A DNA stretch of 40,939 nt from Planctomycetota bacterium (GTDB lineage Bacteria; Planctomycetota; Planctomycetia; Planctomycetales; Planctomycetaceae). The notes below the pieces were generated by a model that was given only the letters and a program-made list of their open reading frames with translations, did not search any database and was not told the origin of the DNA. Shown here in pieces: positions 32,880 through 39,715 of this stretch (the first letter of the stretch is position 1; the number at the start of each line of letters is the position of its first letter). The position numbers and the translations under genes were made by a program. Location: the NCBI GenBank assembly GCA_016872645.1, contig VGZH01000053.1:1-40939 (forward strand), in the 5' to 3' direction.

Positions 32880-34628
32880 TCAGTATCCCACCGCACAGCC
32901 ATCTTTGCGCGGGTCGGTGCCGCCATGCAACACGCCATTTTTGTGGTCGATCAGAATTGCCTGATAACCGCCAAATGCACCGCCGGGACCAGTCAGTTGA
33001 TGACCGCGCTCGGTCAGCATCTTCAATGCTGCGGCCGGGAAACCGTACTCGTGCCCGACAGTGCCACCATTCGCCGACATCGGGCGGCCCGTGGGAGTCG
33101 CGCTGCCGGTGTGTTGCATACGCGGGTGCTCGCCCGCTTGTTGCACATTCATGCCGAAGTCGAGCATGTTGACGAGCACCTGCACATGCCCTTGCGGTTG
33201 GAAGTCGCCACCCATCACACCGAATGTCAGATACGGTTGGCCCTCCTTCGTGACGAACGCGGGGATGATGGTGTGGAATGGCCGCTTGTGCGGTTCCAGC
33301 CGATTGGGATGCGTTTCATCGAGCGCGAACAGGCAACCGCGATTCTGCAATGCGAAGCCGACGTTGCCCGGCACGATCTGCGAGCCGAAGCCGAAGTAAT
33401 TGCTTTGGATGAACGAGCAACAGTTGCGGTCCTTGTCGACGACCGTCAGATAGATCGTATCGCCATGAGCCAGCTTCGCGTCGATGTCGCCCGGCACCAC
33501 TTGCTTCGCCGCCCTAGCCATGTCGATGCGAGCGGCCTGTCGCGCGGCGTACTCTTTGGAGATCAACTCTTTCGTCGGTGGCACTCCGAACGCGGGATCG
33601 AAATAGAACCGCGAGCGATCCGCGAACGCCAGCTTCTTCGATTCAATCAGCAGATGCAGGTAGTCGGGATGAAACGGGCCCAGCGACTTGAGGTCATGCC
33701 GTTCCAGCACGTTGAGCATCTGCAGCGCTGCGATCCCCTGCCCGTTGGGCGGAAGTTCCCAAACGTCGTAGCCGCGATAGTTCGTGCTGACCGGTTCCAC
33801 CCACTCGGAGGTGTGATCTTTGAAATCGTGCATTGAGAAATACCCGCCGTTCGCTTCGCTGAACCGCACGATCTCGCCGGCGATCGCTCCTTCGTAGAAG
33901 GCATCTCGCCCTCCCGTCGCGATCGCGCGATAGGACGCGGCGAGATTCGGGTTCTTGAATATCTCGCCCACGCGCGGAGCTTTGCCGTTCGGCAAGTAGG
34001 TCTTCGATGAATCCGGCCACTGCGACAGACTGCTGGCCGAGCTGGACCAATAGCCCGCGATGATTTCGCTGACAGGAAAACCTTCGTCGGCCGTTTGGAT
34101 GCTCGATGCGAGCAGCTTGTCGTAGTTCATCGTTCCAAACTTCGACCGCAGCATCTCCCAACCATCAACGCAGCCCGGCACAGACCACGACAGCGGTCCA
34201 GTCTCCGGCATCTCGTCGAGCTTCTTCTGAGCAAACACCTCGCGATTGACGGCGTAAGGACTCCGCCCGCACGCATTCAGGCCGTAGAGCTTCTTGGTCT
34301 TCGCGTCCCAATAGATCACAAAGAGGTCGCCGCCGATGCCGCAACTCATCGGTTCGACAAGTCCAATCATCGCGTTGGCCGCAATCGCCGCGTCGGCCGC
34401 GTTACCTCCGGCCTTAAGGATGTCCAACCCCGCCTGAGCCGCCAGCGGATGACTGGTCGCGACAATGCCGTTCTTCGCAATCACCACCGACCGCCCCGGA
34501 TGCGGCAGTGTCTTCGGTGGAGCGGCCTCGGCCGTCGCCGACGTGAAATCCAATCCCGCAAAATATCCCAGCGACATGGCGGTCACTCCCAGCCACAAAA
34601 CATGGTTCAAAAGTCTGCGTCGATTCAC
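32880..34628 (-). CDS. ggt: Gamma-glutamyltransferase
   Basis: From GTG 34628 (AGAAGGGA upstream) the precursor is 582 residues; the frame is open further upstream but without ribosome site. N-terminal export signal: basic NRRRLL, hydrophobic core to about 30, cleavage near AEA-AP at 36. GGT-family segments follow: ATSHPLAAQAGLDILKAGGN, then EPMSCGIGGDLFVIYWD. The autocatalytic nucleophile is probably T391 in HGDTIYLTVVDKD, where the precursor would cut into two subunits. The enzyme transfers or hydrolyses gamma-glutamyl groups, for example of glutathione, in the periplasm. The C-terminal motif GGYQAILIDHKNGVLHGGTDPRKDG is typical. A sodium symporter follows 75 bp downstream. Confidence 0.93.
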   Translation of the reverse strand: MNRRRLLNHVLWLGVTAMSLGYFAGLDFTSATAEAAPPKTLPHPGRSVVIAKNGIVATSHPLAAQAGLDILKAGGNAADAAIAANAMIGLVEPMSCGIGGDLFVIYWDAKTKKLYGLNACGRSPYAVNREVFAQKKLDEMPETGPLSWSVPGCVDGWEMLRSKFGTMNYDKLLASSIQTADEGFPVSEIIAGYWSSSASSLSQWPDSSKTYLPNGKAPRVGEIFKNPNLAASYRAIATGGRDAFYEGAIAGEIVRFSEANGGYFSMHDFKDHTSEWVEPVSTNYRGYDVWELPPNGQGIAALQMLNVLERHDLKSLGPFHPDYLHLLIESKKLAFADRSRFYFDPAFGVPPTKELISKEYAARQAARIDMARAAKQVVPGDIDAKLAHGDTIYLTVVDKDRNCCSFIQSNYFGFGSQIVPGNVGFALQNRGCLFALDETHPNRLEPHKRPFHTIIPAFVTKEGQPYLTFGVMGGDFQPQGHVQVLVNMLDFGMNVQQAGEHPRMQHTGSATPTGRPMSANGGTVGHEYGFPAAALKMLTERGHQLTGPGGAFGGYQAILIDHKNGVLHGGTDPRKDGCAVGY

Positions 34629-34968
34629 AATCAGTCCCTTCTCAGAGCAGCAAACTGGTAAAGCGAAACGATCACATAGTCTCAACATCCTGATCCCGGC
34701 CGGCAAGCAGTAAAGTCGAACTGCCCGCATCTTCCGCCCACCGTTTTTCGACCGCTCTTCTAAAACTGATCGGACGGCAGACGGAAAATAAAACAGGCCA
34801 ACATGTCCACTCCGGGCGTGATCTTCAATGGCGGCGGAACGAGGAGTGGCCACCTGGATTTGTCGCTTTGTTCGACTCTGTGTCCCGTCGCGCCTCAGTG
34901 ATTCCCATTCGCGATTCGGGACTGGTCACAATCGAACAAAGGATTGGAAACCTCAGAGGTGCGACTAG
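34629..34968. other. Gap of about 340 bp upstream of ggt
   Basis: Promoter region of the ggt gene, then non-coding sequence up to the serC fragment. No RNA gene or strong palindrome seen. A plus-strand frame from 34868 to 35101 exists but has no ribosome site or recognisable content. Confidence 0.45.
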
Positions 34969-35801: not shown

Positions 35802-38435
35802 TCAGGGGAGGGCGAACGACGCTCTCGGCGATGCCGCGTCGCCACCGGAATCGTGGGCGAGGCCGGGGGCTTCGTGAAGGGTGCAAACTTTGGTGCGTTC
35901 AGCCTCGTTGCCGCTTCGAGTTTCAGTGAGACTTGAATCTGACGTCCGAGCGAGGTGCATGGCGACGCGAAAACCGATGTGCGGACTGCGGTATGAGCGT
36001 GGAATTGCTATTTGGCTTCGCAGCTCGCGGCGCGTCGATTGCAGTTCGGCTTCGAACCGACCGACATTGGGTAGCTTCAAGATGGGGTTGGTCCTTGCAA
36101 ACTGAGTGTAATGGCGAGGTGCTTCGTCCGAATGCATCCGAAACTCCAGCCACATCTCGGTGGCGCCGGTAAATTGCTCCGTGAGGTCGAACTCCCTCGG
36201 GACGACGGACAACCTGCCGCGATGCTTGAACACGGAGTACCATTCTTCCGCCACTGACTCCATACCTTGCCGACCAGCCTTGCGCACTCTTATTTCGAAT
36301 TCCGAATTCTCGACGTGCAATCCCGCTACATTCACCAATTTCGCACGCCGAATCGGCGACGAAACCGTGTAGTGGTAAACCAAACGCAACGGCTGATCGA
36401 GCGACTTCGGACAAAGGTATTTCGTCACTTCGTCCGGTTCTGTGTGAACATGAGCGTTCTCGGCACGCTCCAAAAAATCGTTGATGCCGCAATTCATGTC
36501 ATACGCATGCACAAATAGGTCGCGAGCGCCACCACCAAACACCAAGCGGCTCTCCTCTGCCGGCATCTCGCCCGTCGTGGCAAATGACACGACACCTTCC
36601 CACTGCGACGGCTTGCGAATCGAGGCATCGGTCCATTCCCACACATTTCCTGACAAACCCAACAGCCCTAGTGACGAGCGACTCGATCGCCGCGCGGCGA
36701 CGATTGTGTCATCGACAGGCGGCAAGCTGTCCACGAGCGTCGCTACGGGCGTACCGCGCGACAAGAGGTCAAAGCCATACGCGGCATAGGTCATTTCGAT
36801 TTCCCAAGGCAGATGATAAGTCCAAGGCCCCGGTTCGAGCATCGTGAGCTTTCGGCAGAACAACTCCGCTTCATCGAACGTGATGCCGGTCATCGGCAGG
36901 TCCTGATCCTCAACGAGTGTCGGCGAAGTAGCTACAGCAGCATTACCCATCACAGCCGCGAATTCGCGCCGCGTCACTTCACACTCTCCTAGGTAGAAGT
37001 CGCGATCGATGTTTCGCCAATCAATCCGTTCGGTCAGTTCGTGATGTTCGGAAAATGGGGGCCACGACGCGATCGGCGCTGGTGCTGGAACTCGCCGAAA
37101 TCTCATGCCGAGCGAATTAACGTAGGTGTCTGGGTCCAGCAATCCATGCACTGGAGACCGACCGAACCACAGGCACGCCAACGCGATCAGCGCACCGCTC
37201 AGCACCAGCAATACCCATGATCCCATCCGCAGCCGACTCCTCGCGTTCGGCTTCGGTGCGTGGACGGAGTGAACTCCAGCTTCGCTCTCAAGCCGGATCC
37301 GCCAAGGTATTTCTCGCATCGTGTCTGGCAGACCGCGGGCCACCGCCCAAGCGGCGCGAAACACTTCACAGAATTCTTCAGCAGTCGCATACCGATTTTC
37401 TGGCTCGGCCGCCAGACACGTTCGCCATACGGTCCGCAATCCGTCCTCGCAGGCGCCGGCCGATTCAGGCAATTCCAGCGTCTCGCGCATCATCCGAGCC
37501 GTGACTTCCGCGAGGGTACCGCCGGAAAAAGGGTGCCGCCGATAGACCAACAGAAACGTGATGGCACCCAGGGAAAACAAATCGCTGCGAAACGTGACCT
37601 TTCCACTGAGCAGTTGTTCGGGAGCCATGTACAACGGGGTTCCCGCGACCAGATCCGCGTCCGAGTGTCCCTCAAACGCCAGGCCAAAATCCACAATGAC
37701 GAGCTGACCCGAAGATTCGTCACGCAATACGTTGCCCGGCTTCAGATCGCGATGCACGATCCCCGCAGCGTGAATCGCTGTCACCCCTTGAACGATTTGA
37801 TCCAGCATGCTGAGTACAAGGTCGTCGCTCCTTTTTGGGTTTTGTTCCAGCCAGTTTTGCAGGGTCGTGCCAGGGATCCATTCCATCACGAAGTACACGA
37901 GTCCGGACGTGTCCTCCTCCGAAACATGAAAAATCGTGACCACATGTGGATGCCGAATGCGGCTAGCCATCCGCGCTTCATTGAGGAACTGACGGCGGCG
38001 AGTCGCATCCTCTGCGAGCGACGGGGCCAGCACTTTGATGGCAACGGGGCGATCCAACCGAGCATCCCAAGCTCGAAACACGAATCCCGTGTGTCCCAAG
38101 GCCACGCAAGTTTGGAGCGTGTAACCACCGAGTCGCCCCATGTTGGCCGACGATTCGCAACCCCCGATTTGAGCCAACACCGCCGCCAGGTCCGAGTCCC
38201 TCAAGCAGCGATCATCGTTCCGCGTCGTGAGCAACGACGAGTAGGCGACATTGGCCGGGACTTCAAACTGCCCCCCCCACCTTGCATGTGCAGCCAAGAG
38301 GCCTTCAACTTCGCGCGCGAGAAGCGGGGCTTCTTGCGACAACCGCGCGAGCCACACCTGTCGTTCCGCCTCCGAACGGAAACTCAGCGCGGCCGAGAAC
38401 GCGGACTCCAGTCGATCAACCGATGGCAAAGACAT
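35802..38435 (-). CDS. Ser/Thr protein kinase fused to a split formylglycine-generating-enzyme-like domain
   Basis: An 877-residue protein. Residues 1-100 are the helical leader seen in planctomycete kinases (ERQVWLARLSQEA, EVEGLLAAHA). The kinase domain (105-370) has VAIK (K134), HRDLKPGN (catalytic D230), DFG (249-251) and APE; the first glycine of the P-loop is Ala (ALGHTGFV). One transmembrane helix (405-424) separates it from an extracytoplasmic FGE/SUMF-like part: NSLGMRFRRVPA at the start, FYLGECEVTRREFAAVMG, the hallmark GNVWEWTD (597-604) and closing IGFRVAM (820-826). Between GNVWEWTD and that closing strand, about 165 residues of beta-rich, non-FGE sequence are inserted. An ECF sigma gene lies upstream. 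The FGE part probably binds a ligand, not an enzyme. Confidence 0.88.
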   Translation of the reverse strand: MSLPSVDRLESAFSAALSFRSEAERQVWLARLSQEAPLLAREVEGLLAAHARWGGQFEVPANVAYSSLLTTRNDDRCLRDSDLAAVLAQIGGCESSANMGRLGGYTLQTCVALGHTGFVFRAWDARLDRPVAIKVLAPSLAEDATRRRQFLNEARMASRIRHPHVVTIFHVSEEDTSGLVYFVMEWIPGTTLQNWLEQNPKRSDDLVLSMLDQIVQGVTAIHAAGIVHRDLKPGNVLRDESSGQLVIVDFGLAFEGHSDADLVAGTPLYMAPEQLLSGKVTFRSDLFSLGAITFLLVYRRHPFSGGTLAEVTARMMRETLELPESAGACEDGLRTVWRTCLAAEPENRYATAEEFCEVFRAAWAVARGLPDTMREIPWRIRLESEAGVHSVHAPKPNARSRLRMGSWVLLVLSGALIALACLWFGRSPVHGLLDPDTYVNSLGMRFRRVPAPAPIASWPPFSEHHELTERIDWRNIDRDFYLGECEVTRREFAAVMGNAAVATSPTLVEDQDLPMTGITFDEAELFCRKLTMLEPGPWTYHLPWEIEMTYAAYGFDLLSRGTPVATLVDSLPPVDDTIVAARRSSRSSLGLLGLSGNVWEWTDASIRKPSQWEGVVSFATTGEMPAEESRLVFGGGARDLFVHAYDMNCGINDFLERAENAHVHTEPDEVTKYLCPKSLDQPLRLVYHYTVSSPIRRAKLVNVAGLHVENSEFEIRVRKAGRQGMESVAEEWYSVFKHRGRLSVVPREFDLTEQFTGATEMWLEFRMHSDEAPRHYTQFARTNPILKLPNVGRFEAELQSTRRELRSQIAIPRSYRSPHIGFRVAMHLARTSDSSLTETRSGNEAERTKVCTLHEAPGLAHDSGGDAASPRASFALP

Positions 38436-38534
38436 CACAACTCCAATCTCTCACGTCAAGCGGAGCCGGCCGGAGCGGTGTCTCAGAGTTCTTTCGAAAG
38501 TCATTTTGTTCTTGTAGCCCAACCCTTGGCCCGT

Positions 38535-38583
38535 CGTAGGATCGGTTTTTCTTGGAAAGTCAATGCTCAGTCAAAATCCTACG
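38535..38583. repeat. Inverted repeat between sigma factor and kinase gene
   Basis: Arms CGTAGGAT (38535-38542) and ATCCTACG (38576-38583) flank 33 bp. Outer bases GGCCCGT and GCCCCAC extend the pairing weakly. The core GTAGGAT is shared with the hairpin after trxA. Confidence 0.55.
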
Positions 38584-38730
38584 CCCCACAAGGAGTCGGG
38601 CGACGGGTGCTTCGGACCTTTTCTGCGATCACCGCGGACATTCCATCAGTTTGGATCTTTCATGGACTGCTCAGGGTGAGACCAGCGTGCGGCTTCGATT
38701 GACAATGGGTTCATGAAAAAAGAGCAATGG

Positions 38731-39327
38731 TTAGTCCCCAAAGGATTCATCGCGCAGACGCCGAGCTAGCCAGGCCTTGGAAAACTCCCACTTACGGTAC
38801 GCGGTGGCCCGTGAGATCCCTAACAATTCCGCCGCTTGCTCGAGCGACGCTCCGCCAAAGAGTTTCAGTCGGACCAGTTCCGCATTGTCTGCCGACCGTT
38901 CCTCCAACTCGCGTATCGCTTGTTCGAGTCGCAGAAAATCCTCGGCCAACATGGCGACCGATTCGACGTCTGACTCGCTGCCGTAGTCCGGTAGGACATG
39001 GCCAGTTTCCAATCGTCTGCGAGATCGTCGCGACCGAGCACGGTCCACCAGAATCTGCCGCATGGCTTGAGCCGCGAAACGGATTGACCACACGGACAGC
39101 GGCCCACCCTCAGTCTCCGTACGATGCACCAGTTTCAAATACAGCTCATGAACCAGCGCGGTTGCAGTCAGCGTCGAATCCTTCGGCTCCTGGGACATCA
39201 ATCGCTGCGCAACCTGGCGCAACTGCTCGTAATCCAACGCGCGGGCCGAGTCGGACGGCCCATTCTCCCGCCGACCGCCCGCCCGCGAATCCCTACCGTC
39301 GGTTGATGCTTGCCGGACATCGAGCAT
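38731..39327 (-). CDS. ECF-type RNA polymerase sigma factor
   Basis: A 198-residue sigma factor of the planctomycete ECF type. ATG 39327 has GGAGAG seven bases upstream; the frame is open to 39378. Region 2 appears at about 40-110 (DYEQLRQVAQRLMSQEP, ALVHELYLKLVH, RFAAQAMRQILVDRARSRRS) and region 4 at about 145-195 with its helix-turn-helix (GGASLEQAAELLGISRATAYRKW). No anti-sigma gene is next to it; a Ser/Thr kinase gene lies 295 bp downstream on the same strand. Sigma factors of this class often sit beside such kinases and may be controlled by phosphorylation. Confidence 0.92.
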   Translation of the reverse strand: MLDVRQASTDGRDSRAGGRRENGPSDSARALDYEQLRQVAQRLMSQEPKDSTLTATALVHELYLKLVHRTETEGGPLSVWSIRFAAQAMRQILVDRARSRRSRRRLETGHVLPDYGSESDVESVAMLAEDFLRLEQAIRELEERSADNAELVRLKLFGGASLEQAAELLGISRATAYRKWEFSKAWLARRLRDESFGD

Positions 39328-39715
39328 GCGACATCTCTCCACATCCATCCGAATTCGATTTGCAGAACATCCCGGCAAGATCGGTGCGGAAAGTCGATGG
39401 CGAGTTGCTGCCGAGAACTCTTGATTGTGTCAGGTTATGTCCACCAAGGCCGTCCAGCAAGCAAACACACTGTTAGCGCCTAAACGCCGGGCCTTAATTG
39501 CCGTCGCTTTTTCAAAATCTTCCAAGAACACCTGAGACGTCCGCAGCCAAGCTCCGCCTTTCAGAGCGTCGGCCGGGTGCTGTTCTTTGTGCCCCTTGGT
39601 CGGGGTCTCTCGGACGGCTCTGGTTTGACGCTCCTCTCGTTTTGAGAGCGGCGCCAAACCAGAGGATTCGCCAACCCAGACTGCGAACCCCCTGATTCGC
39701 AAAAAGGAGCCAACG
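39328..39715. other. Gap of about 390 bp upstream of the sigma gene
   Basis: The region holds the promoters of the sigma gene (minus) and the lipoprotein gene (plus). A minus-strand frame 39430-39702 reads LEDFEKATAIKARRLGANSV and is open for 90 codons, but it has no ribosome site and no recognised family; it could be a dead fragment. A hairpin lies at 39618-39664. Confidence 0.45.
39618..39664. repeat. Hairpin upstream of the lipoprotein gene
   Basis: Perfect outer arms CTCTGGTTTG (39618-39627) and CAAACCAGAG (39655-39664) enclose a second, inner inverted pair CTCTC/GAGAG around GTTTT. It lies 52 bp before the lipoprotein start and could act on its leader transcript. Confidence 0.65.

Follow-up and report, generated by a model that had tools for sequence, protein, structure and literature searches.

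Taken together, our findings support a model whereby a Ser/Thr kinase with a two-part sensor hands a signal from outside the cell to the ECF sigma factor encoded directly upstream of it. The sensor found in the window (the whole analyzed stretch of DNA, 40,939 nucleotides) is an FGE-like domain that is interrupted shortly before its end by a second domain, and relatives of this second domain occur free-standing in other proteins. In our model, the kinase would cross the inner membrane once, placing the catalytic domain inside and the sensor outside, where a catalytically dead FGE fold, which is C-type-lectin-like, would serve as a scaffold that carries the second domain in one of its loops. 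A cell-surface ligand, for which a carbohydrate or some other component of the envelope is the likeliest choice, would bind the two-part sensor and bring about dimerization and autophosphorylation of the kinase; the active kinase would then phosphorylate Thr73 in region 2.2 of the adjacent sigma factor, and phospho-Thr73 would supply a negative charge that the sigma factor lacks, allowing it to bind RNA polymerase and turn on its regulon. We lean toward this chain of events as a whole, and we place more trust in the pairing of sigma factor and kinase than in the ligand step. Kinase–FGE fusions and sigma–kinase pairs are already known; what is new is the nested domain, together with the relatives scattered elsewhere and the tie to one type of sigma factor, and among the literature matches listed, no FGE sensor with an inserted domain was described. 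The features of the locus are collected in Table 1.

Table 1 Features of the kinase and sigma factor genes. Positions are those of the window; residues of the kinase protein are counted from the GTG at 38438 and Thr73 from the TTG start of the sigma factor.
Feature	Position	Strand	Basis
Ser/Thr kinase gene with nested FGE-like sensor	35802..38435	-	ORF and translation, Pfam, orthologs
Protein kinase domain, residues 101-366	37341..38138	-	Pfam PF00069, translation, tree
P-loop A-L-G-H-T-G-F-V, Ala113 replacing the first Gly	38079..38102	-	translation, orthologs
Single predicted transmembrane helix, residues 408-426	37161..37217	-	hydropathy
FGE-like core, first part, residues 437-654, including GNVWEW (36633-36650) and the GGGARDLFVHAYDMNCGIND segment	36477..37130	-	PF03781, alignment of six sensors
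Inserted domain, residues ~655-806	36021..36476	-	spacing, profile matches to free-standing relatives, insert model
FGE-like core, closing part with IGFRV, residues 807-830	35949..36020	-	alignment of six sensors
ECF sigma factor gene (PF07638, TIGR02999), directly upstream of the kinase, start codon tentative	38731..39378	-	Pfam, NCBIfam, kept gene order
Thr73 codon of the sigma factor, predicted phosphorylation site	39160..39162	-	translation, related sigma factors, EcfP/EcfK position

The kinase reading frame comprises 878 residues from the GTG at 38438 and 877 from the ATG at 38435, the latter being the position from which the orthologs align. By profile (PF00069, residues 114-354, E 5.1e-44) and by its K, HRD and DFG residues, the protein is a Hanks-type Ser/Thr kinase; VAIK, HRDLKPGN, DFG and APE were all found by eye in the translation. 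An earlier note on this DNA had described a kinase with an FGE-like sensor, which the Pfam matches to PF00069 and PF03781 bear out, and had pointed to an Ala in place of the first Gly of the P-loop. This Ala is indeed there, and it recurs in L001, L002 and L131, so that four of the seven kinases found to carry the nested sensor share it. Two others (L046 and L129) keep the first Gly and have Ala in place of the third; each member of this clade of six thus lacks one of the three P-loop Gly residues, with the other catalytic motifs intact, and the kinase of genome G977 is alone among the seven in having a canonical P-loop. The first Gly is present in all 11 readable sigma-linked sister kinases (n = 16; the pattern was unmatched in the remaining 5). 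The predicted transmembrane helix coincides with the hydropathy peak of the protein (2.26 over 19 residues), there is no further segment above 1.6, and the sensor is probably extracytoplasmic, as had been proposed. At its C-terminus, the window protein has a tail of ~45 residues past the end of the FGE-like core (35802-35948, minus strand), which L001 and L002 lack. Downstream of the kinase lies a gamma-glutamyltranspeptidase gene (32880-34853, minus strand), in the place of which L002 has an apparent helicase (by eye).

The interruption of the FGE-like core is evident from both profile coverage and motif spacing. The sensor matches PF03781 over residues 474-636 (E 1.2e-11; 45.2 bits versus a cut-off of 23.3), and because this match, which begins at profile position 31, stops at 220 of 255, the final 35 positions of the profile must be displaced. 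GNVWEW and G[FY]R stand 219 residues apart in the window, L001 and L002, versus 34-66 residues in 37 of 40 comparison FGE motifs (in the other 3, the pattern met no closing GFR, and in L078, one of the 37, the GYR at which it ended is perhaps not the closing strand) and 58-64 residues from GNVWEW to GFR in eight FGE kinases that are sigma-linked and belong to the window's genus. The distance in the window sensor exceeds the yardstick of ~70 residues that we devised in the present analysis. The GG strand, by comparison, follows GNVWEW after 32 residues in the window and after 12-37 in those comparators where the pattern located it; this spacing is ordinary, and the extra stretch therefore lies behind the GG strand and forms an insert of ~150 residues. 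The flanking patterns H..D...G.N and P........GFR bracket the insert in all six aligned sensors, and residues 637-654, in the scaffold adjoining the insert, are identical at 18 of 18 positions in the window, L001 and L002, making them the best-kept stretch. The claim that a segment interrupts the FGE fold between GNVWEWTD and the closing IGFRV strand thus stands, but its boundaries had to be redrawn, as the segment starts ~50 residues past GNVWEWTD and spans ~150 residues.

Judging from its relatives, the insert is a separate domain in its own right. This conclusion is drawn from sequence relatives because structure prediction for the whole sensor did not succeed (mean pLDDT 38.3, pTM 0.37 with three sequences). 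The window insert matches no Pfam family. Outside the class of the window, genome G269 encodes two adjacent secreted-looking proteins with two copies of the insert domain each, and when the profile of four kinase inserts was compared with that of these four copies, the probability was 96.0 (E 4.1e-9); controls reached at most 1.2 over 59 column shuffles and 0.2 with the reversed profile. In G867, the gene for a kinase with FG-GAP repeats is followed immediately by those for two small tandem proteins with signal-peptide-like starts (by eye); comparison of six inserts with these two small proteins gave 94.2 (E 1.2e-7; at most 11.4 in 50 shuffles), and comparison of the G269 copies with them gave 88.7 (E 2.5e-6). 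G836 resembles G867 in having a kinase followed by two small insert-related proteins, the second of which is interrupted by the contig end. The kinase and its two tandem exported-looking insert relatives occupy 871-4533 in L132 and 747-4292 in L133. The insert domain is matched weakly in G127 (E 1.5e-4) by a protein that, by eye, ends in a PEP-CTERM-like sequence; the PEP-CTERM-like frame with the weak match at L136 (1305-2135, minus strand) has 277 residues. The earlier note described the segment as beta-rich, which a model of the insert with its β strands bears out, and named two findings that would speak against a new insert, namely that it is part of an ordinary FGE core or a known repeat of the FGE family. 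Neither applies, as the comparison FGE cores lack the stretch and its relatives are free-standing in other proteins. Within the kinases, the insert evolves at the same pace as the remaining protein, with dN far under dS (window versus L001: insert, dN 0.174 and dS 0.77; first FGE part, 0.173 and 0.81; kinase part, 0.192 and 0.65), and it is 72% identical to that of L001 and 69% identical to that of L002.

The fold of the insert is likely a β-sandwich, which may belong to the galactose-binding or jelly-roll class. When modeled by itself (mean pLDDT 60.4, pTM 0.61; used solely for the class of fold), the insert shows successive β strands, whose block-mean pLDDT is 62-83, and poor ends. A Foldseek search with this model gave no match at E ≤0.001 (best 3.9e-3), and the best Z from the structure aligner was 6.3, a level which the tool calls common. 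The top aligner rows were mixed, with Z of ~5-6 for Elapor1, glycosidases, meprin MAM domains, a virus capsid protein, CBM29 and CBM32, and values in this range may reflect no more than a frequent arrangement of strands; the likeness to galactose-binding-like β-sandwiches (F5/8 type C, CBM32, CBM29) and MAM domains is middling in structure and comes with no significant sequence match to the insert. One free-standing relative aligned with F5_F8_type_C_2 at E 0.02-0.04, under its cut-off, and no solved structure was significantly similar in sequence to the sensor, A3, A7, A5 or one free-standing relative.

The insert may instead serve as a dimerization or spacer domain that binds no ligand, with the FGE-like scaffold reading the signal; we regard this as a minority possibility to be taken seriously, as no ligand or binding site was identified and the stretch kept best in the window, L001 and L002 belongs to the adjoining scaffold. 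The free-standing relatives in secreted-looking proteins, however, suggest that the domain works alone, and in G523 the insert is kept while the scaffold motif GNVWEW is lost. We prefer a sensor in which scaffold and insert would together bind the ligand; the earlier note had likewise proposed that the insert may be ligand-binding.

The nested sensor is present in seven kinases found in four genera and two families. A search with the insert alone matched 3 of 149 genomes, the window's own included, all in the window's genus, and a profile of four inserts matched 7 of 397 genomes of the class, in kinases of the window's own genome, G523, G1003, G977 and G1028 and in small proteins of G867 and G836; L001 and L002, which lie outside the 397-genome listing of the class, were added to reach the seven kinases. 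With narrower profiles, 2 of 392 and 3 of 392 genomes matched in samples of the phylum (one of the 3 partially). Matches were also found in 5 of 298 genomes sampled around G269 (four of them partial), 4 of 45 genomes of the order of G867 and 2 of 109 relatives of G977, and the viral contigs searched held no insert relative. Because few genomes matched across the class, phylum and order samples, the insert is rare and patchy within the sampled genomes. A profile of the whole sensor matched 91 of 120 genomes of the family, with full-length matches in the window and G523 only, among the matches listed. Partial weak matches in G342, G589, G593, G722, G798 and G870 and a partial fragment of 41 residues on contig 151 of G867 were left uncounted.

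The ECF sigma factor gene directly upstream, which was absent from the earlier note, gives the kinase its likely target. The window sigma factor matches PF07638 (E 2.7e-28) and TIGR02999 (128.6 bits versus a cut-off of 126.15), and a sigma factor gene adjoins the kinase gene upstream in all seven nested-sensor loci. In region 2.2 of the window sigma factor, T-A-T-A replaces D-A-E-D, the motif of many ECF sigma factors, and six of the seven partner sigma factors have Thr at the third motif position (TATA, TATS and TATG variants beyond the window's TATA); the seventh, in G977, is of another ECF type (PF04542) with the motif C-Q-D-D. We also took 21 further sigma factor relatives, namely all those at E 1e-10 in the 12 genomes of the genus. 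For 16 of these, a kinase reading frame on the same strand lies no more than 3 kb downstream, eight of the 16 with an FGE motif, and each of the remaining five has a contig end less than 700 nt away. Thr stands at the third motif position in every one of the 21, with Asp directly behind it in one case (L118, MPTD). Between the sigma factor and kinase genes, the window has ~225 nt of extra sequence (38476-38728, minus strand), so that 295 nt precede the ATG versus ~70 in L001. A repeat element was ruled out as the source of this stretch, which is present in a single genome copy, matches no Rfam family and has no internal repeats.

Support for phosphorylation of the sigma factor comes from the ECF43 group, in which, according to the cited accounts, the neighboring kinase phosphorylates a Thr, EcfP being modified by PknT and EcfK by PknS (PMC8999054, PMC13147305). 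As described there, the EcfP/PknT pair of Vibrio parahaemolyticus and the EcfK/PknS pair of Xanthomonas citri resemble the window in that a membrane kinase gene lies beside the ECF sigma factor gene, and ECF43 sigma factors and the window sigma factor both lack acidic residues in the region 2.2 motif and have Thr at the same position. The ECF43 consensus is given as QTTA versus TATA in the window (PMC13147305), and the resemblance of the window sigma factor to ECF43 is one of motif and gene neighborhood; the sensor domains reported for ECF43-linked kinases also differ from the nested FGE sensor. In the same account, a Thr51-to-Ala version of EcfK remains functional in the host, and the Thr is therefore not always essential; Thr51 is replaceable provided that a second site is left, and several sites may therefore count (PMC13147305). 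That the kinase targets something else and the adjacent sigma factor is regulated otherwise strikes us as unlikely in view of these precedents and of the pairing in 7 of 7 nested-sensor loci and beside 16 of 21 related sigma factor genes. It would, though, suit G977, where this sensor belongs to a diverged kinase whose neighboring sigma factor has acidic motif residues, and it would suit the presence of the Thr across related sigma factors generally; as the Thr is common to these as a whole, it does not by itself single out the window pair. We therefore retain the adjacent sigma factor as the predicted substrate in the window, and note that the phospho-Thr step cannot hold as written in G977 because its sigma factor is of the PF04542 type with C-Q-D-D.

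The G977 locus (L130, 1233-4507) combines the nested sensor with a more distant kinase and a different ECF sigma factor. Its sensor is 37% identical to that of the window, compared with 32% for G523 and 31% for G1028, while its kinase domain scores 109 bits versus 216 for G523, 223 for G1028 and 119-169 for six insert-free kinases. In a tree of 17 of 23 kinases (L101, L102, L105, L110, L111 and L112 were dropped for their short matched stretches), the six other nested-sensor kinases form one group with support of 97/97. The raw similarities suggest that the sensor moved onto another kinase–sigma pair in G977. This stays a suggestion because a tree with all seven nested-sensor kinases in one clade was not rejected (p-AU 0.21).

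Active FGE enzymes have an active-site cysteine pair behind the GG strand. A pattern search found no Cys-x4-Cys pair in the window sensor, and because this pair is missing, the FGE core is probably a scaffold rather than an enzyme. The pair is present, as GGSFMCNANYC, in L078 from the same genome, which is likely a true FGE. GNVWEW is replaced by GSLGEW in G523 and G1003, by GSNWEW in G1028 and by TNAWEW in G977, and the FGE core may therefore have lost its own role; in G1028, it falls below the PF03781 cut-off (14.9 versus 23.3 bits). That the window sensor is still an FGE-type enzyme whose insert alters the substrate range would agree with its PF03781 match over the cut-off and is, given the lack of the pair seen in L078, very improbable.

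A scaffold role for the FGE core has parallels elsewhere. The only solved-structure match of the window sensor was a weak one to 2y3c (E 0.13), which we take to be TvpA, the DGR variable protein of Treponema denticola. The C-type-lectin/FGE fold is described as being reused for recognition (PMC10907252). An example is this Treponema denticola protein; what the window sensor adds is a whole inserted domain instead of variable residues. In planctomycetotal kinases, the sulfatase-modifying (FGE, PF03781) domain is reported as the third most abundant partner and mostly as periplasmic (PMC11032199). These FGE kinases, like that of the window, combine a kinase, one transmembrane helix and an FGE-like domain. 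The eight sigma-linked FGE kinases that we compared have an uninterrupted FGE end, whereas the window kinase carries a second domain.

The occurrence of the insert domain beside a kinase in G867 and G836, and built into the sensor elsewhere, makes it tempting to speculate that it is a secreted signaling module for membrane kinases and that, in a Rosetta-stone manner, the free form acts as a secreted partner or competitor. We consider this a long shot; if true, activation of the sigma factor would follow from two inputs that the nested sensor reads simultaneously. Genomes of the genus give 10 to 71 kinase-query matches each, and to our knowledge the inputs sensed by such kinases are largely unknown. 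With clear domain borders, a named partner sigma factor and a named Thr, the input, the kinase and the output can here be tested together. Finally, our work defines an unnamed, probably extracellular domain that is shared by kinases, small exported-looking proteins and large secreted-looking ones.
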